This document shows, piece after piece, positions 8,155 to 42,080 of a stretch of DNA of 64,000 nt. The notes below the pieces were generated by a model that was given only the letters and a program-made list of their open reading frames with translations, had not been told where the DNA came from and searched no databases. How positions within the stretch are numbered: position 1 is the first letter of the stretch; each line of letters opens with the position of its first letter. Origin of the DNA: Pantoea ananatis LMG 2665 (GTDB lineage Bacteria > Pseudomonadota > Gammaproteobacteria > Enterobacterales > Enterobacteriaceae). The stretch covers positions 434,001-498,000 of the forward strand of contig NZ_JMJJ01000006.1 of assembly GCF_000710035.2 (NCBI RefSeq), read 5' to 3'. The translations under genes were made by a program, and so were the position numbers.

Positions 8155-8187
8155 CGCGCTTACTGGGTAAGGATGCATCTGCCGCCC

Positions 8188-24383: not shown

Positions 24384-24431
24384 GTCGGGTTACCTGCTTC
24401 AGCGGTTAACAAGAACAAAGTAAACGTCAGA

Positions 24432-24452
24432 CTGCCGGAAAACAGGCGGCAG
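24432..24452 (-). other. Small hairpin between dgaF-like gene and PRD regulator
   Basis: CTGCCG and CGGCAG form a perfect 6-bp stem with a 9-base loop in the 126-bp gap between the aldolase gene and the regulator gene. It could be a partial terminator or processing site that lowers expression of the regulator relative to the enzymes. There is no T run. Confidence 0.4.
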
Positions 24453-24509
24453 GTCTATTATGCCCTGCGCGCCCGTAATCTGTCCTTGAAGTGGCGCACA
24501 GGCCTGGGC

Positions 24510-25250
24510 TCAGTCCAGCAGACTTTTACAGATGGCCAGCAGTTGGCGCACGTCTTCCACGCGGGTTTCGCCACTGGCTTTGTCGATGATCGAACTGTAA
24601 ATGTGGGGAATGATCTTGCTCACGCCAGCGTCCAGCGCAATACGCAGGATCGGCCCAACGTTTTGCAGATCGATCCCGCCGGTCGGCTCCAGCCAGAAAT
24701 CCTGTTTCGCACAGGCTTCGGCCACCGCGCGGTACTCGTCCACCGTATCCAGACCGCCCATTGGAAAATACTTCACGGAACTGCCGCCCATGTCCTTCAG
24801 TAACGCAATCGCGGTATCAATGGGCACAATTCCGTCGCTGCTCTGTGAACTGAGGGGACCGGTGGAAATTTTCACCTTGCCCGGCGTGCCGGTTGGTGAA
24901 ATCAGCCCGTTGACTACCGTTTGTGACTGACCGAGCAGCGCACGGCTGGTGCCGACGCCGGTAAACACCTGATTAACATGTTGCGGCTGTAGCACGGCGG
25001 CCAGTTCGCTGACCATTCGCGACTGCCGGGGATCGCCCGCGCCCAGGCCGATGGACAGCGCGTTATCAATCAGCGCGGCGTACTCGCGCATATCCGCAAT
25101 AGCGGCCTCGTTGCTGGGGTAGTTTTTTGATAACACGCCGACCAGTACGTGGCCTTCTGCGGCCTGCCAGATGGCTCGCGCGTTCTCTTTTGAACCCGCC
25201 AGCACGTTAAGACACAGGCGATCCTGATAAAAATTGGGGGTTAGCGTCAT
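24510..25250 (-). CDS. dgaF: KDPG aldolase-like protein (DgaF type)
   Basis: The 246-residue protein matches the DgaF family, whose Salmonella member cleaves 2-keto-3-deoxygluconate 6-phosphate to pyruvate and glyceraldehyde 3-phosphate. The probable Schiff-base lysine is K160 in VKYFPMGG, corresponding to the KFFPA-type motif of KDPG aldolases. EPTGGIDLQNVGPIL near residue 200 supplies the C-terminal glycine-rich phosphate-binding loop. It follows the dgaE-like gene by one base, so the pair is translationally coupled. In Salmonella dgaE and dgaF sit beside a mannose-type PTS, whereas here they sit beside an uncharacterised membrane system. Confidence 0.85.
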   Translation of the reverse strand: MTLTPNFYQDRLCLNVLAGSKENARAIWQAAEGHVLVGVLSKNYPSNEAAIADMREYAALIDNALSIGLGAGDPRQSRMVSELAAVLQPQHVNQVFTGVGTSRALLGQSQTVVNGLISPTGTPGKVKISTGPLSSQSSDGIVPIDTAIALLKDMGGSSVKYFPMGGLDTVDEYRAVAEACAKQDFWLEPTGGIDLQNVGPILRIALDAGVSKIIPHIYSSIIDKASGETRVEDVRQLLAICKSLLD

Positions 25251-25251
25251 G

Positions 25252-26367
25252 CTATTTTTCTCCTGTTAACAGCGCCTGAATGCGGGTGAAAATAATCTGC
25301 AGCTGCTCAGCGCTGACGCTGCGCACGTCGGCTTCAATAACGCCCTCATTGGCTTTGTAGCCACGGAAGTAAATGGCGATATCACCGTTTTTTAGCGCCT
25401 GCACCAGATCGCCGGTCTGATGCCCGATTGTGGTCTCATCGAATTTGATCTCTGCCCGGGCAATGTCGCGCCCGGCGGCATCCCATACAACGCGCGCACT
25501 GACGCCATCCAGACCGTTAAGGTTGTTGATGAAAGGCGTCATTTTTTCCACCATCTGGGCGCCGGTGGTTTTCGGCAGGGTCAGGTAGGATTCAATGGCC
25601 TGGGTCAGTCCCAGAATCCCCTCTTTGCCCACTTTCATGGTGCGGCCAATGCCGTTGCTCTGGCGCTTCACCCACTCGACAAGCTGATGTTTCCCGATAA
25701 CCAGGCCGCTGGTGGGGCCTTCAATGGCTTTGGCCCCGCTGTAAATAACCAGATCGGCACCCGCCTGGTAATAGCACTGCAGATCTTCCTCAGCGGCGGC
25801 ATCCACGATAAGCGGCACGCCATGCTTACGTGCCACCTCGGCGGCCTGCGCCACGCTCAGGTGGCTCTTTTGTACACAGTGATGGGACTTCACATAGAGA
25901 ATGGCCGCCGTCTGGGCGGTGACTGCAGCGGAAAGCTGCTGTGGCGAGCACTCGTTACTGTAACCCGCCTCAACCGTCCGACCGCCGCCCAGCGCAATCA
26001 TGCTGCCAACGGGCGCGCCGTAATTCACGTTATGCCCTTTTGGCACCACGATGTCGTGCGGCACGGTCAGCGGTGCGCTATGTAAATTATCCAGCAGCCA
26101 GTCGTCATCTTTCACAATGACGGCAGCCACGCTTTGGGCGATGCCCGCAGAAGCACAGGACACCACCAGCGCATTTTCCACCTGCAGCAAATTAGCGATG
26201 TAAGCCCCGGTCTTATCAACCAGGTCCTTCACTTCAAAATAGTGCTCCAGGCCGTATTTAACCGTATCAACCACGTCGCTGGCCGGTGTAGACACGCCAA
26301 GAATGGTCATGCGGCCAGAGGCATTAATGACCTGCTTCAGGCCATATTTCTCATACAGTGAAGACAT
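25252..26367 (-). CDS. dgaE: PLP-dependent ammonia lyase (DgaE type)
   Basis: The 371-residue protein is a SelA-related PLP enzyme of the DgaE family. Salmonella DgaE converts D-glucosaminate 6-phosphate to 2-keto-3-deoxygluconate 6-phosphate and ammonia. The PLP-binding lysine is K213 in YSGAKAIEGP, with the cofactor-contact aspartate in LIVDAAAEEDL (about residue 189). A start at 26367 (MSSLYEKYGLKQVINASGRM) overlaps the end of the amidohydrolase gene by 17 bases, showing tight coupling. The exact substrate here may differ from glucosaminate 6-phosphate, because the transporter and the amidohydrolase are different. Confidence 0.86.
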   Translation of the reverse strand: MSSLYEKYGLKQVINASGRMTILGVSTPASDVVDTVKYGLEHYFEVKDLVDKTGAYIANLLQVENALVVSCASAGIAQSVAAVIVKDDDWLLDNLHSAPLTVPHDIVVPKGHNVNYGAPVGSMIALGGGRTVEAGYSNECSPQQLSAAVTAQTAAILYVKSHHCVQKSHLSVAQAAEVARKHGVPLIVDAAAEEDLQCYYQAGADLVIYSGAKAIEGPTSGLVIGKHQLVEWVKRQSNGIGRTMKVGKEGILGLTQAIESYLTLPKTTGAQMVEKMTPFINNLNGLDGVSARVVWDAAGRDIARAEIKFDETTIGHQTGDLVQALKNGDIAIYFRGYKANEGVIEADVRSVSAEQLQIIFTRIQALLTGEK

Positions 26368-27484
26368 TGTGTTTTTTCCCTTCTTCAGTCATCCAGCACT
26401 CACCGGCGACGATAGCCGCCAGAGGAATCAATTGGCGATCGCCCTGCTCCGCCAGCCCTTCCGCATCCACAAACGACACGGATTCGTGCGCCACGGTAAA
26501 CAGGGTAAAGTCGGCATCAAGTCCGGGCTCAATAGCACCTTTGCTGCGTAATCTCAGCCCGCTGGCCGCCTGATGCGTTACGCAGGCAATAATCTGTGGC
26601 AGCGTCATGCCTACATTGAAAAATTTCGACATCACGTGCGCCAGGGTATAAACCGGTCCGTTCAGACGATTGCGGCAGTAGATGTCTGAACTGATGGTGT
26701 CAGGCAGAATGCCTTGGGCAATCGCCGCGCGCGCCACCTCAAAGCTGAAGCTGGCACTGCCGTGGCCAACATCAAGCCGCAAGCCCCTTGCCAGTGCCTG
26801 TTTTACCGCTGCACGCAGTTGCCCTTCGGGCGTCAGGATGCGGTTTGGCTTGCCGTTGTAGCAGTGGGTGATGATGTCGCCGGAGGTCAGCAACGCGGCG
26901 ATTTCATCGAGGTTGGGGGGATTGTTACCAATATGCACCATCAGGGGCAGGTTGCCATTTTCCTGCTGAATCGCCTTCGCCAGCACCAGCGGCCGAATGC
27001 CGTTTTCGCCCACCACGCTGCTGCTCATCCGGGCTTTAAGCCCGACGATAAAATCGGGATGACGTCTTACCGCATCGGCAATCGCCGGGCGATCAATCTG
27101 GGTCATGTCCGCCAGTTCATTTTGGGTAACGATGCCGGTGCGGGCGATATTCAGCAGCGCAAAAACCTGGGTGGTGACCGCTTGCGTGCGCTGTCTGAAA
27201 TCATCAATGTCGTCTGCACCTGTACTGCCTGCATCGACAACACAGGTGACGCCGCTTTCCACGCCAATCCGGTCGGGATGATCGTGATAGATGGGCGATT
27301 TTTCATAGCAGTGTACGTGGGAGTCGATCCAGCCCGCACTGAGATAGCAATCCACCGCCAGGGTTTGTTCCACTTTTGCCCTGCCGGTTACCTCACCCAC
27401 GGCGGCTATTTTTCCGTCGAGTATGGCGATATCGATCAGACGTTCATCCGGCAGTCGCGCCCGACGCAGAATCAGATCGTACAT
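26351..27484 (-). CDS. Amidohydrolase/deacetylase family metallohydrolase
   Basis: The 377-residue protein is an amidohydrolase-superfamily enzyme with the dihydroorotase/N-acetylglucosamine-deacetylase-like layout. The binuclear metal site is visible: H56 and H58 in DSHVHCYE, the likely carbamylated lysine K150 in VGLKARMS, H184 in MVHIGN, H207 in THCYNG and the catalytic aspartate D267 in SSDIYC. I recall this family as part of a conserved but uncharacterised gene cassette together with DgaE- and DgaF-like enzymes. It probably hydrolyses an amide (acyl group or lactam) from the transported compound before the ammonia lyase acts. The start at 27484 has AGGAGA before it. Confidence 0.82.
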   Translation of the reverse strand: MYDLILRRARLPDERLIDIAILDGKIAAVGEVTGRAKVEQTLAVDCYLSAGWIDSHVHCYEKSPIYHDHPDRIGVESGVTCVVDAGSTGADDIDDFRQRTQAVTTQVFALLNIARTGIVTQNELADMTQIDRPAIADAVRRHPDFIVGLKARMSSSVVGENGIRPLVLAKAIQQENGNLPLMVHIGNNPPNLDEIAALLTSGDIITHCYNGKPNRILTPEGQLRAAVKQALARGLRLDVGHGSASFSFEVARAAIAQGILPDTISSDIYCRNRLNGPVYTLAHVMSKFFNVGMTLPQIIACVTHQAASGLRLRSKGAIEPGLDADFTLFTVAHESVSFVDAEGLAEQGDRQLIPLAAIVAGECWMTEEGKKHNVFTV

Positions 27485-27538
27485 AGGAATCTCCTTTGAC
27501 TGCCCCGATCGGCCTTCACCAATCGGGCATTAACGCGA

Positions 27539-28183
27539 TCAGATCGCGACCGGAAAAATCGCGCCGAGGATCATGGCACCGAGGATCGCCCCGCCGGTGA
27601 TCGGTTTGTTCCACAGATAGAACACCAGCGCACCCAACAGCGAACCGAGACCGATAGGAATGGAGGCGCCCATGGCGGCCAGGATAATCAATGGCCCCAG
27701 GAAGCGTCCTGATGCATTGCCCGCGCCCATCATCACGTCCGCACCATAGGTGCTGTTGCTTTGATTAATGGTGAACTTACGCGCCAGAATGATGACGTAG
27801 CCTATCGCCACACCGATAACCAGACCGGTGACCAGCGAAGCCGCAAAATTCGCCACCGGGAAGACAAAACCGGCGCCCAGCAGCAGCGCGGGCACGCCCA
27901 ACCCGACGCCGGTCTGGATGGCACCACCGATATCCAGAATCCCGACCAGCGATCCTTCAATGATGCGGGCGAACAGAAAGCTGGCACCGAAAGCGGCCAC
28001 CGCGCCGTAAACGCCGGTATCGATGCCCGCCCGTAACATCGAGACGAAGGCCACTTCGTTAAAAGCGCCGATACCGTACAGGTAGTACATATGGGTCCCG
28101 GCAAACACGCCGGAGGAGAGCAGACCGACAAAAATCGGGAATGACCAGTCGGCATACCAGAAACCTTTGTTTGATTCTTCCAT
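27539..28183 (-). CDS. DUF4310-type integral membrane protein
   Basis: This 214-residue hydrophobic protein has six or seven predicted membrane helices (about residues 13-36, 44-72, 77-100, 102-133, 160-190 and 195-214) and a short charged loop near 133-142. It matches the DUF4310 family as I know it. Function is not established. Always finding it with the next three genes and with sugar-acid enzymes suggests it is one half of a membrane permease. Glycine-rich helices (AIQTGVGLGVPALLLGAGF) resemble those of EIIC-type channels in composition only. Confidence 0.8.
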   Translation of the reverse strand: MEESNKGFWYADWSFPIFVGLLSSGVFAGTHMYYLYGIGAFNEVAFVSMLRAGIDTGVYGAVAAFGASFLFARIIEGSLVGILDIGGAIQTGVGLGVPALLLGAGFVFPVANFAASLVTGLVIGVAIGYVIILARKFTINQSNSTYGADVMMGAGNASGRFLGPLIILAAMGASIPIGLGSLLGALVFYLWNKPITGGAILGAMILGAIFPVAI

Positions 28184-28196
28184 TGCAGACGCTCCG

Positions 28197-28973
28197 TTAT
28201 TTGCCGCTCAGGCTGTTATGAATACTGTCGAGCCAGCCAGGAATGCCGAGCTGGAAGGATTGCAGCATCTTCATATCGAAACCGCGGAAGAAGGCGCTGA
28301 GAACAAACAGGGCGACGATGGCGGTCATCATGATTTTGGTCACTTTGTTCCAGCCGCTCTCTTCAACCCCTTTACCAATCAAAATGCCCAGCACCAGGCC
28401 CGGTACGGCATTGCCCATAATCAGCTGTGCCAGACCGCCGAAGATGGTGGCCCAAAAGCCCGATTTCTTACCGGCGTCAATTGCCGCCAGCCAGAAGATC
28501 ACCGGCATGACCGTGTTCACCAGCAAATTAGCGGCCGGTACCAGCACCTTTACCGCCGTGACCTGCAGAGCCGCCGGAACAGCAGAGGCGGTCGAGTTGA
28601 GAAAAGCCACCACCACCATGCCGATGATGCCGCAGGCGATAGCCATCTTTTTCGGGTCGTGTAGCGTCTCTGCCACATTGCGGTTTTTGATCATGATCGC
28701 CGCCGCGCCCCAGTTGGGGATGATGCGATGATCCACGTCCTGCGTGAACGCACCCGCCGCCACGGAGGAGGCCCAGGCGTTAAAGAAGAATCCCAACCCA
28801 AAAGAGAAGTGAGAGGCAGGATCGCCTTCACAGGAGTTAAGTTCACCCAGTGTGCGAAAGGCGCCCATACCTTGTGTCGTCGGGGCATGGAACATGCGGG
28901 CGGCACCGGCGCCCACACCGACGCCCACGAGGCCGCCGATAATTAACGACTTGAGCAAAATGATGAGAAACAT
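28197..28973 (-). CDS. DUF4311-type integral membrane protein
   Basis: This 258-residue membrane protein has about six helices: an N-terminal helix (residues 2-24), a hydrophobic region after a conserved-looking polar stretch (TLGELNSCEGDPASHFSFGLG, split across residues 41-61), and later helices near 110-135, 143-165, 172-198 and 212-230. The polar segment with cysteine and histidine, followed by DVDHRIIPNWGAAA, could be a substrate-binding loop. It ends 13 bp before the DUF4310 gene and probably forms a heteromeric permease with it. The family is uncharacterised as far as I know. Confidence 0.8.
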   Translation of the reverse strand: MFLIILLKSLIIGGLVGVGVGAGAARMFHAPTTQGMGAFRTLGELNSCEGDPASHFSFGLGFFFNAWASSVAAGAFTQDVDHRIIPNWGAAAIMIKNRNVAETLHDPKKMAIACGIIGMVVVAFLNSTASAVPAALQVTAVKVLVPAANLLVNTVMPVIFWLAAIDAGKKSGFWATIFGGLAQLIMGNAVPGLVLGILIGKGVEESGWNKVTKIMMTAIVALFVLSAFFRGFDMKMLQSFQLGIPGWLDSIHNSLSGK

Positions 28974-30329: not shown

Positions 30330-31766
30330 TTATGACTCAGCGTCAGTGGGCTGACGTAATGGCGTAACGCGGTTTTTGTCGTCAACGGGCTGGAGGCGAT
30401 GCGTTTTACGTCGGCTAATGGCGGCCACGATCAGGGCAAAACGCGCTTCATTCAGCTTGTAGCAGAAGCCCATGATCAACGCCGCCGCAATCGCCAGCGA
30501 ACAGGGCCAGATAAAGATCAGCTGCCTTAAACCTGCCAGCGTGCCATCGCTTTGTACGGCATTGGGCACGTAGCCTATTTGCGTCAGCATCAGACCGGGC
30601 AAAAATCCTGCCAGCGCGGCGGATATCTTGCGAAAGAAGGTGTAGCCCGTGTAACAGGCACCTTCTGCCCGAATGCCGGTTTTCCACTCCCCGTACTCTA
30701 CGGTATCCGGCACCAGCGCCCAGTTAAGGCTATTAACGAATGCCGTACCGAAAAACGCCACGCAGGAGAACATGACGAACAGCAGAGAGCTGCTTCCCCA
30801 GAGAAAGTTACCCAGATCGCCCAAGGCCCAGAGGATGAGTCCCCCCAGATAAACCTGTTTCTTACCAAACTGTTTTACCGCTGTGGGCACCAGCAGTACG
30901 CCCACCAGAATACAGCCCATGCTGAAGAAGCCCATCCAGGAGAGCAAATGAACATCGTTCAGCACGTACTGCGTGTAGTAGACCTGAATGGCCAGCTTGA
31001 TATTAAACGCCGCCAGGGTACAGAGGTTCGCGAGGCACAGAACCAGCAACGGCGGATTGTGAAAGATGGCGCGGAAGGCCGTTGCCACACCGGGTTTATG
31101 ATGCGTCGGGGTGAGCTCAACATAGCGCTCTTTAACCCCGCTGTAACAGAACCACATGCACAGCAGCCCGGCGACCACAAAGACGGCGGCGGCAACCTGA
31201 TAGCCCAGCGCACTTTTGCCAACAAACAGCGACTGAATGGGCATAAAGCACACGGTGCAAACCAGTAATCCCACCGTTGCCCCGCCCTGCCGCCAGGCGG
31301 CGAGGTGGGCGCGTTCGTGGGGATTTTTGGTTATGGCTGGCACCATTGCGCCATAGGAACAGTTCATCAGGCTGTAAAACAGACCAAACGTCATAAACAG
31401 GGCGGTCGCGATCGTTGTCTTTATCGTCAGGCTAAAGTCGTTAGCAACAAACTGTGCCGCAGCCACCAGCGCTACCGGCAGCGAGAAATAGAGAATAAAA
31501 GGTCTGAATTTTCCTCTCGTGCCAATATGGCGGCGTGAATCCAGCACAATGCCGGTGAACATATCGGTTAGGGCGGTAAAGAATTTCGCCACCAGGAAAA
31601 TCACCCCGCCGTACCAGGCTGGCATGCCCAGCTCATCGGTGTAGAACTTGAGTAAATAAAGCGTCCCGATAGTCAGCATCAGGTTGGAGCCAAAATCACC
31701 GACGCCGTAAGCCACCTTCTCACGCAGCGGGAGTTTCAGCGTTAATGGATCGGAGCCTGTCTTCAT
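30330..31766 (-). CDS. yihO: GPH-family permease of the sulfoquinovose cluster (YihO-like)
   Basis: The 478-residue protein is a glycoside-pentoside-hexuronide:cation symporter (MFS-related) with twelve membrane segments and the family start KLPLREKVAYGVGDFGSNLM. It is the last gene of the yih operon, the position of yihO in E. coli, where YihO is the presumed sulfoquinovose importer. The start at 31766 follows AAAGGA; a longer frame reaching 31802 is less likely. It is closely similar to the neighbouring permease, so the two arose by duplication. Which imports and which exports cannot be read from sequence. Confidence 0.82.
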   Translation of the reverse strand: MKTGSDPLTLKLPLREKVAYGVGDFGSNLMLTIGTLYLLKFYTDELGMPAWYGGVIFLVAKFFTALTDMFTGIVLDSRRHIGTRGKFRPFILYFSLPVALVAAAQFVANDFSLTIKTTIATALFMTFGLFYSLMNCSYGAMVPAITKNPHERAHLAAWRQGGATVGLLVCTVCFMPIQSLFVGKSALGYQVAAAVFVVAGLLCMWFCYSGVKERYVELTPTHHKPGVATAFRAIFHNPPLLVLCLANLCTLAAFNIKLAIQVYYTQYVLNDVHLLSWMGFFSMGCILVGVLLVPTAVKQFGKKQVYLGGLILWALGDLGNFLWGSSSLLFVMFSCVAFFGTAFVNSLNWALVPDTVEYGEWKTGIRAEGACYTGYTFFRKISAALAGFLPGLMLTQIGYVPNAVQSDGTLAGLRQLIFIWPCSLAIAAALIMGFCYKLNEARFALIVAAISRRKTHRLQPVDDKNRVTPLRQPTDAES

Positions 31767-31811
31767 AAGTGATCCTTTTAGCGCCGCGACCGGCGCAGTC
31801 ACAAAGCCAAA

Positions 31812-33206
31812 TTAGCGCTGACGCTTACGTGCATCGATCTCCTCAATGATACGGACATACATCTTCTCATTGAGATTGTAGAAGCACCCCATGGCCACGA
31901 TGGTGATCACGGCCAGCGCACCGGGATAGATGAACATCAGCTGCTTCAACCCTTCTACCGTTCCGGACGACTGAATCACGTTGGGCACGTAGCCGATTTG
32001 TGTCAGCATCCAGCCGGGGAAAAAGCCGGCCAGCGCCTGTGAGACCTTACGGAAAAAGGTAAAACCGGTATAAACCGTACCTTCAGAACGAACGCCCGTC
32101 CGCCATTCCCCGTACTCCACCGTATCGGAAACCAGCGCCCAGTTAAGGCTGTTGACAAAGGCTGAGCCAAAAAAAGCCAGACAGGAATACGCGACAAAAC
32201 TGACCGAACCGCCGCCGAAGAAATAGTTGAGCAGATCGCCCGCGACCCAAATCAGCAAACCGCCGATATACACTTTTTTCTTACCAAAGCGCCTGACCGC
32301 GCCGGGCATCATAAATACGCCAATAAAAATGCACCCCATGCTGAAGAATCCCATCCATGACAGCAGAATGGGATCGTTCAGCACGTACTGGGTGTAATAA
32401 ACCTGGATCGCCAGTTTGACGTTAAAGGCGCCCAGTGTGCATAAGTTGGCAATGCACAGGATAAACAGTGGACGGTTGCCCGCGATGGCACGGAACGACG
32501 CTAACAGTCCCGGTTTCTGCGTGGGGCTGCTGGCGGGTTGCTCGACATAACGCTCTTTTACGCCGGCATAACACCACCACATAAAAAATAAGCCAAACGC
32601 CGAGAACAGCGTGGCCGCAACGACATAACTCAGCTGCGGATTGCCTTCAATCAGGTTCATGACCGGTACAAAACCCACGGTACAGATCAGCAAGCCCAGC
32701 GTTGCGCCGCCCTGCCGCCACGCGGCCAGTGCGGCACGCTCGTCGGGGTTTTTCGTCATCGCGGGCACCATCGCACCGTAGGAACAGTTCATCATGCTGA
32801 AGAACAGGCCATACATCATAAACAGCACTGTGGCGACGATCGTTTTTCCGGTGACGTCAAACGGCGTACCCACAAAATTGGCGATAGCTAACAGGGTTAC
32901 CGGAAAGGCCGCGAACAGCACGAAGGGACGGAACTTGCCTTTCGGGCCAATCCGACGCCGCGAATCCAGCATGATGCCGGTGCCCATATCGGTAAAGGCG
33001 GTAAAAAACTTGGCCACCAGGAAAATGATGCCGCCGTAGGTTCCCGGCAGCTCCAGCACGTCGGTATAGAACTTCAGGAGGTAGAGCGTACCGATATCTA
33101 ATAAAATATTTGAACCCAGATCGCCGATGCCATAGGCGACTTTCTCTTTGAAGGGCAACCGTAACGTCGCCGGTTCACTGCCGGAAGCAAGATGGTGTTG
33201 GCTCAT
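31812..33206 (-). CDS. yihP: GPH-family permease of the sulfoquinovose cluster (YihP-like)
   Basis: The 464-residue permease is a second GPH-family member, beginning LRLPFKEKVAYGIGDLGSN and ending NLNEKMYVRIIEEIDARKR. It lies where yihP does in E. coli, between the distal permease and yihQ. Shared motifs with its neighbour include MNCSYGAMVPA.TKNP, AAWRQGGAT and NLCTLGAFNVKLAIQVYYTQ. UniProt-style annotation of YihP as a dihydroxypropanesulfonate exporter is tentative. The start at 33206 (MSQHHLASG) was preferred because the upstream extension runs into the neighbouring tauE/safE-like gene. Confidence 0.82.
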   Translation of the reverse strand: MSQHHLASGSEPATLRLPFKEKVAYGIGDLGSNILLDIGTLYLLKFYTDVLELPGTYGGIIFLVAKFFTAFTDMGTGIMLDSRRRIGPKGKFRPFVLFAAFPVTLLAIANFVGTPFDVTGKTIVATVLFMMYGLFFSMMNCSYGAMVPAMTKNPDERAALAAWRQGGATLGLLICTVGFVPVMNLIEGNPQLSYVVAATLFSAFGLFFMWWCYAGVKERYVEQPASSPTQKPGLLASFRAIAGNRPLFILCIANLCTLGAFNVKLAIQVYYTQYVLNDPILLSWMGFFSMGCIFIGVFMMPGAVRRFGKKKVYIGGLLIWVAGDLLNYFFGGGSVSFVAYSCLAFFGSAFVNSLNWALVSDTVEYGEWRTGVRSEGTVYTGFTFFRKVSQALAGFFPGWMLTQIGYVPNVIQSSGTVEGLKQLMFIYPGALAVITIVAMGCFYNLNEKMYVRIIEEIDARKRQR

Positions 33207-33252
33207 GATTTCTCTCCGCTGCCCCACTGAACCTGTCAGCAGGGCCGCTTTT

Positions 33253-34146
33253 TCAGGATGGTTTTGAAGCGTTTTGTTGCTCGATTTCAGCGCGAATAGC
33301 GGCCACTTTTTTACCAAACAGCAGCTGCATGACGGCCAGCAGGCCAAATGAGGGCACCAGTACCTGCCAGGCCGGGATATCCAGAGCGCCTTTGATCAGC
33401 ATGGAGCCCGAAGCAATCAGCAGGAGAAACACCATCAGTCGGAAAGCCCGCACGGAGATACGCTTGTGCACATACTGGCCCACTAACGATCCAAGGATCA
33501 TGGTAGGAATGCAGAACATCACCAGCTTGACCGTTGAGACCGTTAAAATGCCGCTGGTGGTCAGGCCGCCAATAATGGCGATGTTATTCGCGGTAAAAAA
33601 TGCATTGAGCGTGCCGCGAAAAGCAGCGGGTGCCAGATTCCTTAACATGCCGTAGATCACGACGGGCGGACCGTTGGTGGCAAACGCCGAGCCGAGCGCC
33701 CCGGCGATAATACCGGTGGGCATCACTATCCAGTTTTTGTCATAGACAGGCAGACGAGGAATAAACAGGCTGTAGAACGAATAAAGGATCAGGAAAACGC
33801 CCAGCCCGGTTTTCATCACGTCGTCCGGAAAATTGGACAGCGCGTAAATGCCCAAAGGGATACCGGCAAAGGAGAACAGGATCAGCACCAGGGCTGACTT
33901 CCAGTTGGTTTCCTTGCGAGACAGCCAGGTGGCATACAGCGCCGTTGCCGTCCCCACAATCACCGACATCGGTGCAGCCATTTTGACCGGCAGCAGCAAC
34001 GTCACCAGCGGCATCGTAACCAGCGCGCCACCAAATCCAGCACAGATGCCAATAAAGGTGTACAGAAACATAATGGCAATAATGATGCAGACGACCTCAG
34101 TGGTGATTTCCAGACCTTCAGGTGTAAGTAGCGTAAAGAAATCCAT
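33253..34146 (-). CDS. TauE/SafE-family sulfonate or sulfite exporter
   Basis: The 297-residue protein is a TauE/SafE (TSUP, PF01925) membrane protein with eight or nine helices. Family motifs are visible: GICAGFGGALVTMPLVTLLLP-like repeat 1 near residues 29-50 and GIIAGALGSAFATNGPPVVIYG-like repeat 2 near 150-172. TSUP proteins export organosulfonates or sulfite. Within a sulfoquinovose cluster the obvious cargo is 2,3-dihydroxypropane-1-sulfonate, the end product of the pathway. E. coli K-12 has no such gene in its yih cluster. The start at 34146 (MDFFTLLTPEGLEI) has AGAAAGGA upstream. Confidence 0.86.
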   Translation of the reverse strand: MDFFTLLTPEGLEITTEVVCIIIAIMFLYTFIGICAGFGGALVTMPLVTLLLPVKMAAPMSVIVGTATALYATWLSRKETNWKSALVLILFSFAGIPLGIYALSNFPDDVMKTGLGVFLILYSFYSLFIPRLPVYDKNWIVMPTGIIAGALGSAFATNGPPVVIYGMLRNLAPAAFRGTLNAFFTANNIAIIGGLTTSGILTVSTVKLVMFCIPTMILGSLVGQYVHKRISVRAFRLMVFLLLIASGSMLIKGALDIPAWQVLVPSFGLLAVMQLLFGKKVAAIRAEIEQQNASKPS

Positions 34147-34160
34147 AATCCTTTCTCCCG

Positions 34161-36218
34161 CTACTGTGGCAATATCTGACTGCCAGCAAGCCGTAATGAA
34201 GCAAACAATGACTGCCATTCGCTGTCTGCCCGATAAAATACCGGCGGCTGCCCCATCGGCGCGGCGACAGTGATATCCCCGCCGTTTAACGTTTCTCCGG
34301 TCCACATGTTGACCCAGCGGTCTTCAGGCAGATAGAGCGACCAGTCGCGGCGGCCCTCTTCATAAACCGGTGCCACCAGCAGGTCACGCCCCAGCAGATA
34401 TTGGTATTTGAGCGTGTAGGTGCGGGCATCCGCTTCATAGTGCAAAAACAAAGGGCGCATAACGGGTAAGCCCGAGTGGGCATTCTGCGCGACAGCCTGC
34501 TTGATATAAGGTTTTAAGGTGGTGAAGATCGTGGACATGCGGGCAAAGTGGGCAATGGTTTCTTCATCGCTGTCAAACTGCCAGTTATCGCCAGGACGGT
34601 TCCCTTCATGGGTGCGCATCATCGGGGTAAAAGCATTGAAGTCACACCAGCGAAGCAGCAGTTCTTTACTGCGTTTCATGCCGTACAGCGTGGTGTAGCC
34701 ACCGATGTCGCTGTGATGCAAACCGTGGCCGCTCATCGCCAGTGACAGCGCGGCGGGCACCACCGAGGCCAGGCCATCGTCCAGGCTCCAGTCAACATTT
34801 TGATCCCCGGCCCACATCATCACGGAGTATTTCTGACTGCCGGTGTAACCCGCACGCATAAAGAACAGCACGTCACCGAGTTTGCCGGTTTCTTCCAGCG
34901 CCTCGTAGTTACACTTCGCCCACAGCGCGGGCCAGGCATTGTGCATGATTTCGGCGCTGACGCCGTTGTGCAGATACGTGTCCGTTGGCAGGTACTCCCC
35001 AAAATCCGCCATCCAGCCGCGACAGCCCAGGGCAATCAGATTGTCTTTGATGACGCCTTTGAACCAGTGGTAAGCCTCCGGATTCGTGAGATCGACGACG
35101 CCCGCATAAAACTCACCAAATTCGACGTGGTAATCGTCCCCAGCCGCATTTTTGGTCAGATATCCTTTCCGGGCGGCCTCTTCGCACAGGTTACGGTCGC
35201 TGGCAACGTAAGGGTTGATATAAGACAGGAACTGTACGCCTTCCGCTTTCCACTGCTGAATGCGCGCGTCCAGTTGGGGATAAAGCTCGCTGTCCCACTG
35301 CCAGTTCCACATCACGCGTTTGCCGAAGGAGGTCATCCGGATGCCGGACCAGTCCTGCGCCCAGATGCCATTCACTTTCACGCCCGCCTGACGCATTTTG
35401 TCCAGCTTCTGCTGGCAGATGTCGGTGCCGCCCTGGATCCCCAGCGTGACGCCATCGTAAACCCAGTCCGGTAATACCGGCTGACGCCCCAACAGGGCAC
35501 TCATTTTTTCCAGCAGGGCGATGTAGGTATCGGCACATTCAAAACGTAACGTGGCGTTATTTTCCCAGAAAGCCAGTTCATGATAATCCGCTGCGCTGAA
35601 GTCAAAATTCATGTAGCCGCTGTTATCCACATGGCAGTAATACTTCTGGCTGCTGACAAAGGTCGGCTGTGGGAAAAAGGTCCAGTAGTAATCTCCGCCG
35701 GCATTCTCTGCACAGTCAGCCTGCCAGGTGACCACGCTTTTCTTATTGCGCCCGACGCCCTGTTCGCTGGTCCAGAGTGGAAAAGGTTTCCCGCGCAAAT
35801 CAAAACAGGAAAACTGCTCGCCACAGCCGTAGATATGATCGTCGTCCAAGGCTGACAGCCTCAGCCAGATACGGTTAAGCCTGTCGCTGTCGTTTGTCAG
35901 CGTAAGCAACAGGCGGCCGTTTTCATCTGTGCCGATGATCAGCGTGGCGCTAAATACCTCTCCGCGTGAGAAGCGCACCGTCCAGCCGGTGTCCTGCGCA
36001 GTCACAACGGCCGAGGTTAACGCCAGTTTTTCATTCAACCGGTCTTTAATACTGAAATTGCCGCGAAACATGTCGATATCGGCGTTGCCATTGCCTATCC
36101 ACAGACAGGGTTTTTCCTCGCTGTGGCTAAGAATTTGTCTGTTTTGATAAGTCAGTGAAAAGCCGTTACCGGCGGCAGTCAGCTTTACGCCTGCCGTCTC
36201 AGGATGTTGTAAATGCAT
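34161..36218 (-). CDS. yihQ: Sulfoquinovosidase (GH31)
   Basis: YihQ is a family-31 retaining alpha-glycosidase that releases sulfoquinovose from its glycerides, the breakdown products of plant sulfolipid. The catalytic nucleophile D405 (GWMADFGEYL) and acid/base D472 (WAGDQNVDW) occur at the residue numbers known for E. coli YihQ. So do the sulfonate-recognising residues R301 and W304 (GKRVMWNW) and Y508 (DIGGYTTL), which set sulfoquinovosidases apart from ordinary alpha-glucosidases. Length is 685 residues (E. coli 678). It lies 14 bp after the TauE-type gene start in the same operon. Confidence 0.97.
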   Translation of the reverse strand: MHLQHPETAGVKLTAAGNGFSLTYQNRQILSHSEEKPCLWIGNGNADIDMFRGNFSIKDRLNEKLALTSAVVTAQDTGWTVRFSRGEVFSATLIIGTDENGRLLLTLTNDSDRLNRIWLRLSALDDDHIYGCGEQFSCFDLRGKPFPLWTSEQGVGRNKKSVVTWQADCAENAGGDYYWTFFPQPTFVSSQKYYCHVDNSGYMNFDFSAADYHELAFWENNATLRFECADTYIALLEKMSALLGRQPVLPDWVYDGVTLGIQGGTDICQQKLDKMRQAGVKVNGIWAQDWSGIRMTSFGKRVMWNWQWDSELYPQLDARIQQWKAEGVQFLSYINPYVASDRNLCEEAARKGYLTKNAAGDDYHVEFGEFYAGVVDLTNPEAYHWFKGVIKDNLIALGCRGWMADFGEYLPTDTYLHNGVSAEIMHNAWPALWAKCNYEALEETGKLGDVLFFMRAGYTGSQKYSVMMWAGDQNVDWSLDDGLASVVPAALSLAMSGHGLHHSDIGGYTTLYGMKRSKELLLRWCDFNAFTPMMRTHEGNRPGDNWQFDSDEETIAHFARMSTIFTTLKPYIKQAVAQNAHSGLPVMRPLFLHYEADARTYTLKYQYLLGRDLLVAPVYEEGRRDWSLYLPEDRWVNMWTGETLNGGDITVAAPMGQPPVFYRADSEWQSLFASLRLAGSQILPQ

Positions 36219-36253
36219 TCTGACCTCTGCGTTGTAGGATAAAAAAATAAGGT

Positions 36254-37102
36254 TTAGCGTGATTCGTGCTGGTCACAGCCAATCGTGAACGTCATGAGAT
36301 GGCGCGCCTGTGGCGCAAGAAAAATCACATCAATGCCAGAATTGAACGCGTCAGGTGGACAACTCATCGGCTCGGCTGCCAATCCCGTGCGGCCAAGTTT
36401 TTCGCCGCTGTAAATTTGCAACCAGGGTTGATCGCTGCGTAAAAAAACCGAAAGTGCCTGCTGTGGACAAGTTAATCTCACCTCCCATTCGCGTCCGGCT
36501 GCGCGGGTGTTAACACTGCAGTCGATCTGCGTCGACGCCAACCGACGCGGGGTAAGAAAATCCCCTTCTGCAATCGCGGCCGGTAGCGTAAGCAGGCAGT
36601 GATCCACCAGGGTCATGTTGCAGGTCAGATAAGGATGCGAACCGACACCGTAGGGCGCGGGTTGATCGCCTACGTTCTGGCTGCTGATACTGACCTGCAG
36701 GCCCTGTGCGGCATCAAGCCGGTAAGTCACTGCCGATAGCAACGCAAACGGATAGCCGTAACTGGGCGGCAGGAAAACCGTTAAGGTCGCCTCGCTGTCG
36801 GTGTGTTTGGCGATCTGCCAGTCACGCCAGGCCAATAAGCCGTGAATGGCGGTAACGCCTTCGTGGTCATTGATGGGTAGCTGAAGCAGCTTGCCGTTAT
36901 GTTTCCAGGTTCCTTTCGAGACGCGATTCGGCCAGGGAATCAGGACTTTGCCCATATGCGCCAGCGGCATTGCCTCCGGAGGATGTGGGAGCACCAGATG
37001 GCGGCCCGCGTGCGTCAGCTCAGCCAGGCCAGCGCCTACGGTGACGATTTTTGCCTGATATTCTCCAGCGTGAAGAACAAGGGTTTGTCCGCTGCTGTGC
37101 AT
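36254..37102 (-). CDS. yihR: Aldose 1-epimerase-like protein YihR
   Basis: YihR is a galactose-mutarotase-like (aldose 1-epimerase) protein that probably interconverts the anomers of sulfoquinovose after its release by YihQ. The 282-residue protein (E. coli about 308) shows the mutarotase fold phrases IPWPNRVSKGTW, ITVIHGL-like INDHEGVTAIHGLL, GVGSHPYL (catalytic histidine) and EPMSCPPDAFNSG (catalytic glutamate). The role in the pathway is inferred from the family and from operon position between yihQ and yihS. Confidence 0.92.
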   Translation of the reverse strand: MHSSGQTLVLHAGEYQAKIVTVGAGLAELTHAGRHLVLPHPPEAMPLAHMGKVLIPWPNRVSKGTWKHNGKLLQLPINDHEGVTAIHGLLAWRDWQIAKHTDSEATLTVFLPPSYGYPFALLSAVTYRLDAAQGLQVSISSQNVGDQPAPYGVGSHPYLTCNMTLVDHCLLTLPAAIAEGDFLTPRRLASTQIDCSVNTRAAGREWEVRLTCPQQALSVFLRSDQPWLQIYSGEKLGRTGLAAEPMSCPPDAFNSGIDVIFLAPQARHLMTFTIGCDQHESR

Positions 37103-37135
37103 AGCTGGTACTCCCGTTAGTCTGTTTTTCAGGGG

Positions 37136-38377
37136 TTATTTCGCATTACAGTCCAGTAATCCTGCCGCTACGGCGGGTGCCAGCCCCGGTGCCAGAGGAA
37201 GGCGCGGGATCACCAGGCAATGCAGCAGGTGATAGATATCCTGTTTGCCGTCCCACACTTTGGTGGTCACCTTGTTTTCGCAATCCAGCTCTTGCCACCA
37301 TGAGCCATTCTCGAAATCCATCATGTAAGTGATGCAGTAATCCCACCATTTCTGGTACCAGGCTTCGTATTGCGCCTCGCCAGTGACCGCATACAGGGCG
37401 TAAGCCGTGCCCATTGCCTCAACCACGGGCCAGCGCACTCTTTCACTCACTACGGGCTTGCCATCCCAGTCCACGGTGTAAACAAACCCGTCTGCGCCAT
37501 CGGGCGCCCAGGCATCGCGGATAGTGGCGTCGAATAAGCCTTTCGCATCTTCAATAAGCCAGGCCGGCGGCGTTTCGAAGCGCGCTTCCAGCGCAGCATG
37601 CAGATGCAGCATCAGACGTCCCCATTCAATCCAGTGTCCGGGCGTGCCGCCATAAGCCCGGAAGCGGTGAGCGGGATTCTCTTTGTTGTAATCGCGTAAT
37701 GGGTTCCAGTCAGTGTCGAAGTGTTCATTGACGCGGTACTCACCGCTGCGCGCGACGTCGTGAATAATCACCGAGGTGACACGCAGCGCGCGATCCAGCC
37801 ATTTCTTGTCGTGCGTGACGTCATAGACAATCAGGAAGGCTTCAACGGCGTGCATATTGGCATTGCCGCCGCGGTAGTCTTCTGTCTTGCTAAAGGCTTC
37901 ATCCCAGGACTCCAGGCACATCTGTTCGTCTTCACTCCAGAAGTAGCGATCGATCACGTCGATCGCGTCATCCAGCAGTTGGCGGGCGGCAGGATGCCCC
38001 GTAGTGACCGCACTGGCAGCGCCCAGCAACACGAAAAAGTGCTGATAACCCTGTTTGGACGCATCAACGACGCCTTCATCGTTTACGCAGGCATACCAGC
38101 CGCCGTACTGTTTATCGCGCAGCGCACCATTCAGGGCGTTAATGCCGTGATCGACCAGTTGATAAGCTCCCGGCCGTCCCATCGAGGCCGCAACGGCATA
38201 GACATGCAGCATGCGTGCGGTAATCCACAGGTGCGTGCCCATCTCGGGTTTTACCTGCCCGGTATTCCCCAGCCAGCCAAATCCGGTGGCGACCGCTGCG
38301 TTTTTACCAAAGTCGAGAATCCTGTCCGTTTCCTGTTCGAGCCAGCGGTTATGACTCAGCGTGTTAAACCATTTCAT
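37136..38377 (-). CDS. yihS: Sulfoquinovose isomerase
   Basis: YihS isomerises sulfoquinovose to 6-deoxy-6-sulfofructose, the first committed step of the sulfo-Embden-Meyerhof-Parnas route. The 413-residue protein equals the E. coli length and belongs to the N-acylglucosamine 2-epimerase (AGE) family with an (alpha/alpha)6 barrel. The histidines and other residues reported as catalytic in E. coli YihS fall at identical numbers here: Y111, H176, H248, E251 and H383. It is followed by yihR after 33 bp and preceded by yihT. Confidence 0.97.
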
Positions 38378-38390
38378 TTGCGTTGCCCTC

Positions 38391-39266
38391 TTAGCGTTTA
38401 GCCATCATTTCATCTACGATCTCACCCAGCCGTTGCAGCCTGGGGACGGAGACATCCCGCAACATCAGGTCGGTATCCGGTAAGCCAATGACGGAAGACC
38501 AGACGGCTCGCCCGGCCAGGAAGCCCGATGCGCCCGCCTGCATCGCCACCCGCACGGCGCGCGGGAATAATTTTTCATCAATGCCGGACGAGAGAATGAC
38601 CCACGGCATCGCGATCCGATCGTTGAGCTTTTGCGCGGCCGCCAGCAGATCCGACTGTGTACCTTTGCCGTACAGGGGCATTTCCACCTTGTAGAGATCC
38701 GCGCCGCTGTTGCCCAATTCTGTGGCCGCGTCCAGGATCGCCTGCTCGCGATCAAAGCGATCGCCACGGCGCGGTGGCCTGACTACCGGTTCGATAATGC
38801 TGAGCAGGCCATGGCGGTGGCAGCGGGTGTTGAAGGCCTTAACCATGTCGAGACGTTGCTGCGGATCTTCATCGCTGCGCCACAGCACCAGCAGCTTCAG
38901 CGCCTTCGCGCCGTCACGCTTCATCGCCACCGGATCGACGTTGTTATCGATCGCCACGCTGTCCACCGGAATACCATTGCCCGGAATGAATTCATCCGCC
39001 GCGACGATAAGGCCGCAGCCGGGGGCAACCGCTTGCCGTTCGACGATGTGCGGGAAACAAAACTGTTGATCAATCAGGATCGCCGAGGCATAGGGCGATA
39101 ACACGCTGGCGGCATTGACTTTAAACTCGGTCAGCACGCGATCGCTGACGGGTAGTGACGCGCCAGCGGCCGCGAACATCAAACGCATGGCCTCACGCTG
39201 ATCGACTGCGAGCATGGCGAAACCACCTGAAGGTCGGGTGATGTCTTTAAGGGTGTAATGAGTCAT
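38391..39266 (-). CDS. yihT: Sulfofructosephosphate aldolase
   Basis: YihT cleaves 6-deoxy-6-sulfofructose 1-phosphate to dihydroxyacetone phosphate and sulfolactaldehyde. The 291-residue class I aldolase (E. coli 292) has its Schiff-base lysine K193 in [13 protein letters not shown], in the position known for YihT. The start at 39266 ([20 protein letters not shown]) was chosen over an upstream ATG at 39293, because it follows AGAGGAAAG and matches the homologue. It lies 23 bp downstream of yihU. Confidence 0.96.
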
Positions 39267-39289
39267 GCTTCTTTCCTCTGAATTAAGCG

Positions 39290-40186
39290 TCACACTGTGT
39301 GGGGAGAAATTAGGCCCGAGCTGGCGCGAACATGTTCAAGGATGGCGGTCCAGTCCTCGCGTCCGCGTCCGGCAGCGCGGGCCTGGTTGTAAACTTCACG
39401 TGAGGCAGCCCCGAGCGGCATCGGTACATGCAGCTGGTTGGCAACATCCAGCGCAATCCCCAGGTCCTTATGCGCCAGATCGATCATGAAGGCCGGTGAG
39501 CGATCCCCTTTCAGTACCTTGTCAGGCCAGGTCGTGGTGAAATGCCCTTTGCCCGCAGGCGTGCCGTTCATCACCTGCAACGCCACGTCAAACGACAGCC
39601 CCAGACCTTCACACAGCACCGCCGCTTCCGCCGAGAGGGCATTCAGGGCGATGCTCATGTAGTTGTTGATCAGCTTGACGCGAATCCCCATACCGGGGCC
39701 GCCTGCCACGACCAGCTCATTGCCCATCGCCATAAGCACGGGTTTTGCTCGTGCAACCTGTTGCGGCGTGCCGCCTGCCAGTAGCAGCAGTGAACCGGCT
39801 ATCGCATGGTCTGACGTGCGGCCGACGGGCACGTCCATCATGCTGAAACCGCGAGCGGCCATCTCACCGATCAGCCGATCGGTTTGCAGCGGATGGATCG
39901 TGGACATATCAATCACCAGCGCAGTGGATGCCAGCGTGCTACACACACCTTTGTCGCCAAGCAGTACGGAACGCACTAACTCGCCGTTGGGCAGCATGGT
40001 GATAACAAACTCGGCCCCGGTTGCCGCCTCCGCAGCAGAAACGCTCGCCCGGGCGCCCTTATCAACCAGACGCGCGACGGCCTGAGGATCCACATCAAAG
40101 ACGTTGAGCTGATGGCCCTGCTTCAGCAGATTGCTCGCCATCGGCGCGCCCATTTGTCCCAATCCAATAAACGCAATTACCGACAT
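39290..40186 (-). CDS. yihU: Sulfolactaldehyde 3-reductase
   Basis: YihU reduces sulfolactaldehyde with NADH to 2,3-dihydroxypropane-1-sulfonate, regenerating NAD+. The 298-residue beta-hydroxyacid dehydrogenase has the N-terminal Rossmann motif [15 protein letters not shown], the substrate loop [10 protein letters not shown] with R123 (sulfonate recognition in E. coli) and the catalytic lysine K171 in RVKLINNY. It is the first gene of the minus-strand operon and diverges from yihV. The 165-bp gap contains the candidate CsqR sites. Confidence 0.96.
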
Positions 40187-40351
40187 ACCGCTCTCCCAAC
40201 CCCGTTATTGTCATATTTTGTCATTAAAGACGACTTTTACTGTCTGTTTTAGATCATATTTGTAATTTATGGTCAAAAAATTGACAGGTGTCACTTTTAA
40301 AACATTTGATGAAATTAAAATGACAACACCAACAAAATGTGAGGAAGCGTT
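40187..40351. promoter_or_regulatory. Divergent yihU/yihV control region with candidate CsqR sites
   Basis: This A/T-rich divergent promoter region carries a cluster of related elements: TGTCAT at 40209-40214 and 40219-40224 (one helical turn apart), the palindrome TGACA-GG-TGTCA at 40282-40293, and ATGACA at 40320-40325. The repeated TGTCA/TGACA half-sites suggest binding by the DeoR-family regulator YihW (CsqR), which in E. coli represses both directions until sulfoquinovose is present. The assignment is by context. Confidence 0.55.
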
Positions 40352-41248
40352 ATGACGCGTATTGCTTGTGTAGGGATCACCGTATTAGATCGCATTTGGT
40401 ATCTGGATACCTTGCCGTCTCAGAGCGGAAAATATGTGGCAAACAACTATCGGGAAGTCGGCGGTGGTCCGGCTGCTACAGCGGCCGTTGCCGCAGCTAA
40501 ACTGGGTGCAGAGGTGGATTTTATTGGTCGGGTTGGTGACGATGACACAGGGAAGAGACTGCTGTCTGAGTTAAATGAGTACGGCGTAAAGACCCGATAT
40601 ACTAAGGTTTTCGAGGCCGCCCGCTCTTCACAATCCGCGATTCTGGTGGATGCCGAGGGGGAACGGATGATTGCCAACTACCCTAGCCCGGACTTAGCAG
40701 AATGCGCAGACTGGCTAACAGAGATCGACTTCTCACAATGGGATGCGGTGCTGGCAGATGTTCGCTGGCACCAGGGTGCCAAGTGCGCGTTTACCCTGGC
40801 CCGCCAACAGGGCGTTCCCACCATTCTGGATGGGGATGTGACCCCGCAGGACATTGGGGAGCTGGTGGCGTTAAGCGATCATGCGGCATTTTCAGCGCCG
40901 GGTTTACAGCGCTTAACCGGGCTGGAGGGGGAAACGGCGGCGTTAAAAAAAGCACAAATGCTCACAAATGGTCATGTCTATGTTACCCAGGGCGCTCAGG
41001 GCTGCGTCTGGCTGGACGCCGGCACGCTACAGCATCAGCCCGCCTTTGAGGTACAGGTCGTCGATACCACCGGCGCGGGCGACGTCTTCCACGGGGGGCT
41101 GGCCGTGAAACTGGCGCAGAAGGGCTCTGTCACAGAGGCCGTGCGCTTTGCCAGTGCGGTCGCGGCGCTAAAATGTACGCGACCGGGCGGGCGAGACGGG
41201 ATCCCTGATTATGATCAAACCTGTTCTTTTATGTCGGTAAATGTATAA
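40352..41248 (+). CDS. yihV: Sulfofructose kinase
   Basis: YihV phosphorylates 6-deoxy-6-sulfofructose at O1 with ATP, between YihS and YihT. The 298-residue protein is a PfkB-family carbohydrate kinase with the N-terminal signature GGGPAATAAVAAAKLGA (about residues 37-53) and the C-terminal catalytic signature VVDTTGAGDVFHGG, containing the general base aspartate. GTGAGGAAG precedes the ATG. yihW begins 34 bp after its stop, on the same strand, as in E. coli. Confidence 0.96.
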   Translation: MTRIACVGITVLDRIWYLDTLPSQSGKYVANNYREVGGGPAATAAVAAAKLGAEVDFIGRVGDDDTGKRLLSELNEYGVKTRYTKVFEAARSSQSAILVDAEGERMIANYPSPDLAECADWLTEIDFSQWDAVLADVRWHQGAKCAFTLARQQGVPTILDGDVTPQDIGELVALSDHAAFSAPGLQRLTGLEGETAALKKAQMLTNGHVYVTQGAQGCVWLDAGTLQHQPAFEVQVVDTTGAGDVFHGGLAVKLAQKGSVTEAVRFASAVAALKCTRPGGRDGIPDYDQTCSFMSVNV

Positions 41249-41282
41249 ACTGTGTGCCATGGTGGTATTCAGAGAACAATCC

Positions 41283-42080
41283 ATGATCCTCACGGACGTA
41301 ACCGGTAATCCTCGCCACGATCGTTTGCTCAGGCTGATCGCTGAACGTGGCTACATGAATATTGATGAACTCGCCTTGCTGCTCGACGTTTCCACACAAA
41401 CGGTCAGGCGCGATATTCGTAAACTCAGCGATCAGGGATTAATCACGCGTCATCATGGTGGTGCGGGCCGTGCATCCAGCGTAGTGAACACCGCTTTTGA
41501 ACAGCGCGAAGTCTCACAGACTGAAGAAAAACGTGCGATTGCGGAAGCCATTGCGGACTATATTCCCGATGGATCAACGGTATTTATCACTATTGGCACT
41601 ACGGTTGAACACGTCGCCCGGGCGCTGGCAAATCATAAACATCTGCGCGTTATCACCAACAGCCTTCGTGTCGCCCATATTCTGTATAAATGCCCACAGT
41701 TTGAAGTGATGGTGCCCGGCGGCACGCTGCGTCCCCACAACGGTGGCATTATTGGCCCGGTCACGTCCGCGTTTGTGGCCGGTTTTCGGGCAGATTATCT
41801 GGTTACCAGCATGGGCGCCATTGAGAGCGATGGTGCGCTACTGGAATTTGATGTTAACGAGGCCGCCGTGGCGCAAACCATGATGGCGCATGCGCGTCAT
41901 ATTTTGTTAGCGGCAGACCACACCAAGTTTCAGGCATCGGCAGCGGTAGAAATGGGCAGCGTTACCCAGGCGACCGCCCTGTTTACAGATCGGTTGCCGG
42001 CAACGGCGTTGCAGAACGTGCTTAAAGCACATCAGGTGGAAATCATTCAGGCGACGCCAGGCGGCGATGAAGAGCCCTGA
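41283..42080 (+). CDS. yihW: DeoR-family regulator of sulfoquinovose catabolism
   Basis: YihW (CsqR) is the DeoR-type repressor of the sulfoglycolysis genes. The 265-residue protein has an N-terminal winged helix-turn-helix (RLIAERGYMNIDELALLLDVSTQTVRRDIRKL, read in two parts across residues 14-45) and a C-terminal DeoRC sugar-phosphate-binding domain (TIGTTVEHVARAL, TNSLRVAHIL, VPGGTLRPHNGGIIGP). The start at 41283 matches E. coli; a frame opening at 41241 overlaps yihV and is less likely. A hairpin at 42086 follows the stop. Confidence 0.95.
   Translation: MILTDVTGNPRHDRLLRLIAERGYMNIDELALLLDVSTQTVRRDIRKLSDQGLITRHHGGAGRASSVVNTAFEQREVSQTEEKRAIAEAIADYIPDGSTVFITIGTTVEHVARALANHKHLRVITNSLRVAHILYKCPQFEVMVPGGTLRPHNGGIIGPVTSAFVAGFRADYLVTSMGAIESDGALLEFDVNEAAVAQTMMAHARHILLAADHTKFQASAAVEMGSVTQATALFTDRLPATALQNVLKAHQVEIIQATPGGDEEP

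Follow-up and report, generated by a model that had tools for sequence, protein, structure and literature searches.

The 64,000-nucleotide stretch of Pantoea ananatis LMG 2665 analysed here (the window) carries, at positions 30330-42080, a ten-gene operon for the complete Embden-Meyerhof-Parnas type of sulfoglycolysis (sulfo-EMP), by which this plant-associated bacterium would break down the plant sugar sulfoquinovose (SQ). It is a known operon type with one extra transporter gene, tauE, whose product belongs to the TSUP family. The best reading of this gene, which we hold to be reasonably probable from its sequence and surroundings, is that TauE exports dihydroxypropanesulfonate (DHPS), the C3-sulfonate end product of sulfoglycolysis. 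The main new points are the presence of tauE in about 23% of complete Escherichia coli genomes, its sharing with the operon of a second, Entner-Doudoroff type of sulfoglycolysis (sulfo-ED), and a natural loss of the permease gene yihP.

Orthologues of tauE keep narrow company. A scan of named genomes returned 28 TauE loci, comprising 27 full-length genes (71-93% identity) and one partial match, and every full-length orthologue adjoins either yihQ (17) or the sulfoquinovose dehydrogenase gene of a sulfo-ED cluster (10). Specifically, 12 separate yihQ from the permease genes (the Q-E-P type), 5 separate yihR from yihQ (the R-E-Q type) and 10 stand at the end of a sulfo-ED operon. The same three settings, with 10, 5 and 8 examples, recur in a sample of the family, where 24 of 392 genomes have an orthologue at a level of at least 74%; these are 23 full-length genes (the window included), all adjoining yihQ or the dehydrogenase gene, and one remnant between yihX and bipA. 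The nearest relatives among the named genomes are in Pantoea allii (93%) and P. stewartii (88%). The subfamily appears to be narrow, because 299 genomes of the phylum gave two strong matches only, the window and one genome of the same order, with a third that was far weaker. Within the window's genus, four of 60 genomes have a yihQ orthologue and three of these have tauE, the fourth cluster being without both tauE and yihR. An apparent third insertion site, with tauE 'upstream of yihW' (L032, L033, L035), was discarded: the flank is a complete sulfo-ED operon that ends in tauE and adjoins the yih cluster.

By its gene content, the second operon that carries tauE is a sulfo-ED cluster. Its nine genes in L038 (610-10453) encode a LacI regulator, a sodium:solute symporter, an IlvD/Edd dehydratase, an HpcH/HpaI aldolase, an aldose epimerase, an SMP-30 lactonase, a beta-hydroxyacid dehydrogenase (7902-8765), a short-chain dehydrogenase and TauE. 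The short-chain dehydrogenase matches the solved sulfoquinovose 1-dehydrogenase of P. putida at 2.7e-96 (next match 2.3e-58), and SQ dehydrogenase, lactonase, dehydratase and aldolase thus stand in one operon. No such cluster is present in the 64-kb window. In the accessible description of the sulfo-ED pathway, sulfolactaldehyde is oxidized to sulfolactate. None of the nine L038 genes encodes an aldehyde dehydrogenase, and a YihU-family oxidoreductase is found in its place, which makes DHPS a plausible end product of the TauE-bearing sulfo-ED operon as well. The best solved match of this oxidoreductase is tartronate semialdehyde reductase, not YihU, and in L037/L133 the sulfo-ED operon is without the gene while yihU lies next door.

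Export of the C3-sulfonate is favoured because the two pathways differ in enzymes and importers and share this end product. The molecules common to both types of cluster are the sulfosugar at the start and the sulfolactaldehyde-derived C3-sulfonate at the end, and each cluster has an importer of its own (GPH permeases in sulfo-EMP, the symporter in sulfo-ED), tauE being the transporter gene common to both. The sulfosugar being the other shared molecule, and the TSUP family being poorly characterised (PMC8873060, accessible text), TauE might instead import SQ, SQ-glycerol or another sulfosugar. However, both operons already possess an importer, and one sulfo-ED cluster (L115) has GPH-like permeases plus TauE, so we consider this improbable. 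The name of PF01925, sulfite exporter, and the title of work on TauE of C. necator, known to us as a citation, would point to sulfite as the cargo and to protection against it. That reading seems very unlikely, as the encoded sulfo-EMP pathway keeps the C-S bond and neither this cluster nor the nine sulfo-ED genes include a desulfonating enzyme. Among the ten cluster genes, to which the search was confined, Pfam detected no sulfite-releasing enzyme family.

The cluster would then operate as follows. YihO, and perhaps YihP, would import sulfoquinovose or its glycosides, YihQ would release SQ and YihR would mutarotate it. YihS, YihV and YihT would convert SQ to dihydroxyacetone phosphate and sulfolactaldehyde, which YihU would reduce to DHPS, and TauE, as a dedicated TSUP transporter recruited for the export step, would carry DHPS out of the cell. 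We infer the substrate, the outward direction and the joint expression of the operon; a scan for promoters and terminators gave no more matches than in shuffled sequences.

A natural loss of yihP bears on this reading. In L093 and L096 yihP is missing, whereas tauE is kept and runs directly into yihO. The rest of these genomes contains no further match above 30% besides yihO, an absence that is weaker for L093, which is a metagenome bin. To judge from these gene complements, TauE without YihP seems to be sufficient there.

Several observations weigh against assigning DHPS export to TauE. The loss of yihP in L093 and L096 counts as one event, because they form a sister pair in the TauE phylogeny (support 99/97). 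Among the clusters of the family sample with an intact sulfo-EMP core (66 loci fetched, 19 without such a core left out), both GPH permeases are kept in all 47, with or without TauE. These consist of 14 with tauE adjoining yihQ, 3 with tauE in a neighbouring sulfo-ED operon and 30 without tauE, and YihP and YihO are therefore kept in 17 of 17 clusters that have TauE. The ratio of nonsynonymous to synonymous substitution rates (dN/dS) indicates purifying selection and shows YihP to be as constrained as YihQ in TauE-bearing Pantoea. A check for relaxed selection on YihP gave no sign of it, some gene pairs yielding no value because of a stop codon in the matched stretch or saturated synonymous divergence (dS). 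In L085 neither yihP nor tauE is present, though four of the genes there are split. E. coli K-12 grows on SQ without TauE (PMC6278857, accessible text), so TauE is not essential. The sulfo-ED oxidoreductase keeps Lys171 of YihU, but Arg123 is replaced by Lys in each of the 12 sequences, which makes DHPS less certain as the sulfo-ED product. The AlphaFold model of TauE is mostly helical and weak (mean predicted local distance difference test score 66.7), and it matches no solved fold in the PDB at E <= 0.001 (best E 0.11).

Some of these data would suit a scheme of redundant export, in which YihP exports DHPS, as annotated in K-12, and TauE is a second route of importance solely at high flux or at particular redox or pH conditions. 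The retention of YihP in the 17 clusters speaks for this scheme, as do the similar dN/dS values of YihP (0.074) and TauE (0.080) between the window and P. stewartii and the existence of E. coli both with and without TauE. Yet the window YihP shares 64.8% identity with the importer YihO, the export role of YihP is called only most likely in the accessible text of PMC6278857, and the L093/L096 lineage manages without YihP, such that we rate redundant export as possible but doubtful.

The earlier note on this DNA had proposed that the TSUP protein takes over DHPS export and leaves both GPH permeases free to import. Its first half gains from the exclusively sulfoglycolytic context of tauE, the two pathways and the one yihP-less lineage, but a freed YihP gains no support from its retention in every one of the 17 clusters and a constraint equal to that of YihQ. 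We would hence call it rather unlikely that both permeases import once TauE exports. More tentative again is a wider proposal, in which the enterobacterial DHPS exporter is TauE and not YihP; YihP, a close paralogue of YihO, would be a second sulfosugar importer, tauE would have come, perhaps on two occasions, from a sulfo-ED operon that is redox-balanced and ends in a reductase, with K-12 among the TauE-less majority.

That tauE might be peculiar to the window cluster is contradicted by a survey of E. coli. With the window gene as query, 1,269 of 5,426 complete genomes gave a match (yihQ, 3,859), and tauE adjoins yihQ in 1,257 of the 5,426 when a query spanning both genes of one TauE-bearing strain is required to be covered at 80% or more. 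Two E. coli loci (L089, L090) and a Salmonella record (L022) have the gene between yihR and yihQ. The corresponding MG1655 spacer is 198 bp and contains no relic of tauE; its ends match the TauE-bearing strain and its middle (about 160 bp) does not. Between K-12 (L020) and TauE-bearing E. coli (L089), dS is 0.005 for yihU, versus 0.165 for yihS, 0.139 for yihQ and 0.222 for yihP. Because dS is low in the first and high in the others, this pattern suggests two haplotypes of the E. coli yih operon, their recombination boundary lying between yihU and yihS. Long and short forms of the yih cassette have been described in E. coli (PMC12608037), and a search of the accessible text of that paper gave nothing on TauE or export. 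In the literature accessible to us, we found no paper that describes TauE from the yih clusters of enterobacteria, supplementary files and subscription papers being outside the scope of the search.

The phylogeny of TauE (40 sequences) places the Q-E-P type in one clade (14 rows, 99/93) and the R-E-Q type in another (10 rows, 100/99). The sulfo-ED rows are split between a group at the midpoint root and a group beside the Q-E-P clade (93/84). It is probable from this tree that TauE passed from a gammaproteobacterial sulfo-ED cluster into sulfo-EMP operons. Given that each sulfo-EMP type is a single clade and the sulfo-ED rows are divided, there were perhaps two recruitments, into two sites of the operon. 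However, constraining the sulfo-ED rows to a single group gives a tree that the approximately unbiased test does not reject (p = 0.092), and one recruitment followed by a move inside the operon would therefore also be compatible with the data.

Other sulfoglycolytic clusters provide precedents and contrasts. The ompL-yihOPQRSTUVW cluster of E. coli K-12 (NC_000913.3) shares with the window the pathway genes, their order, the divergent yihV-yihW pair and the residues tested, but it lacks tauE, whereas the window cluster lacks ompL and lies at another locus. The TauE-bearing E. coli and Salmonella clusters (L089, L090, L022) have the same pathway genes and an orthologous TauE (73-78%), with tauE between yihR and yihQ at gaps of 60-123 bp rather than between yihQ and yihP. 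The gammaproteobacterial sulfo-ED cluster (Mixta, Buttiauxella, Edwardsiella, Vibrio) likewise has an orthologous TauE (71-78% identical) but differs in its Entner-Doudoroff-type enzymes and sodium:solute symporter, and no GH31 enzyme, YihS, YihT or YihV is encoded in the operon. According to the accessible text of PMC8873060, modified sulfo-EMP clusters of Arthrobacter include a TauE permease in strain AK04 that is proposed to export organosulfonate; unlike the window cluster, they have a sulfolactaldehyde dehydrogenase, a sulfolactate product, an ABC importer and no identifiable YihQ. In the sulfoglycolytic transaldolase (sulfo-TAL) cluster of Enterococcus gilvus, TauE is again a proposed exporter of the C3-sulfonate end product, although the pathway is a different one and the proposed substrate is 3-sulfopropionate (PMC11489063, accessible text).

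The window TauE matches PF01925 (TauE, TSUP) at E = 7.8e-34, with 117.8 bits against a gathering score of 32.6, over model positions 1-235 of 237; no solved relative was found by sequence. The open reading frame as listed, of 350 aa, begins too early, and its start was moved to 34146 because homologues begin at M[DE]FF; the Shine-Dalgarno sequence GGAGAAAGG stands directly upstream of the corrected start. The gaps are 14 bp from the yihQ stop to tauE and 46 bp from tauE to yihP. With dN/dS of 0.073-0.080 in Pantoea, similar to yihQ (0.069-0.085), tauE is under purifying selection. All ten genes are collected in Table 1, with corrected starts for tauE and yihP. The minus-strand genes are transcribed in the order yihU-yihT-yihS-yihR-yihQ-tauE-yihP-yihO, and yihV-yihW diverge from them on the plus strand.

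Table 1. Genes of the sulfo-EMP operon in the window
Gene	Coordinates	Strand	Product and supporting match
yihO	30330..31802	-	sulfoquinovose permease of the GPH family (MFS_2); GTG is the listed start, with homology to K-12 from near 31760
yihP	31812..33206	-	GPH-family (MFS_2) permease; K-12 annotation: putative DHPS export protein
tauE	33253..34146	-	tauE-like TSUP transporter, 297 aa; PF01925; proposed C3-sulfonate (DHPS) exporter
yihQ	34161..36218	-	GH31 sulfoquinovosidase; NF007746, 1171 bits
yihR	36254..37102	-	sulfoquinovose mutarotase; NF011719, 475 bits
yihS	37136..38377	-	sulfoquinovose isomerase; PF07221
yihT	38391..39269	-	sulfofructose-1-phosphate aldolase; PF01791
yihU	39290..40186	-	sulfolactaldehyde reductase; NF012005, 557 bits
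yihV	40352..41248	+	sulfofructose kinase; PF00294
yihW/csqR	41283..42080	+	DeoR-family regulator; PF00455, PF08220

The earlier note was right that all sulfo-EMP enzymes are encoded, with their catalytic residues in place, and that a TSUP gene absent from MG1655 lies between yihP and yihQ. Pfam and NCBIfam together name the product family of every gene, and yihQ, yihR and yihU exceed the curated cut-offs of their NCBIfam equivalog models. The genes for sulfoquinovosidase, SQ isomerase, sulfofructose kinase, sulfofructose-1-phosphate aldolase and sulfolactaldehyde reductase thus occur together. Global identity to the MG1655 proteins is 73.7% for YihO, 87.0% for YihP, 78.9% for YihQ, 60.6% for YihR, 86.2% for YihS, 78.0% for YihT, 76.2% for YihU, 74.2% for YihV and 80.5% for YihW. 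Alignment to MG1655 (K-12 numbering) finds conserved R301, W304, D405, D472 and Y508 of YihQ, together with Q288, as well as H176, H248 and H383 of YihS, K193 of YihT (residue 194 of the window protein) and R123 and K171 of YihU, positions that we take to be catalytic. The 64-kb window contains neither an OmpL gene nor the yihX and bipA flanks of the enteric locus, which places the cluster at a different genomic site from that of E. coli. A neighbouring cluster (22473-28973) encodes DgaE/DgaF-like enzymes, an amidohydrolase, membrane proteins of the EF_0832/EF_0833 families and a regulator with a phosphotransferase system IIA-like domain.

Furthermore, several variant clusters were observed. 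Among the intact-core clusters, yihR occurs in all 14 that have tauE adjacent to yihQ and in 17 of the 30 that have no tauE (Fisher p = 0.003); because the test ignores kinship, we do not use this co-occurrence as evidence. In L149 (10045-11118), which has the R-E-Q arrangement, tauE is intact and the adjoining yihR is a short remnant. L076, L080, L081 and L086 have genes of yihV, yihW, yihU, yihQ and yihP type, but no match to yihS or yihT, and some 3 kb of other DNA separates yihU from yihQ; these clusters are perhaps another type of sulfoglycolysis. Across enteric and Vibrio sulfo-ED operons (L036, L038, L040, L041, L104, L106-L109, L111, L116, L117), the place of an aldehyde dehydrogenase is taken by an oxidoreductase of the YihU family. 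Besides TauE and an OmpL-like porin, the sulfo-ED cluster of Aeromonas cavernicola (L115, 215-10924) encodes two GPH permeases that share 51-53% identity with YihP and YihO. A short yihTUVW cassette adjoins the sulfo-ED operon in L106, L036 and L037/L133 (including Citrobacter amalonaticus), and L036 has an extra zinc dehydrogenase and further transporter-sized open reading frames. This adjacency may be a clue to what the short cassette of E. coli does.

Sulfite-reducing bacteria that produce hydrogen sulfide can feed on DHPS released by E. coli, yet the route by which DHPS leaves the cell has so far only been inferred. If the TauE-bearing sulfo-ED operon also ends in DHPS, that pathway would be redox-balanced, which would fit fermentation. 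An overlooked tauE gene, carried by roughly one E. coli genome in four and common to a second sulfoglycolysis pathway, offers a genetic handle on the cargo of YihP, YihO and TauE. K-12, on which the model of the pathway is based, belongs to the TauE-less majority.

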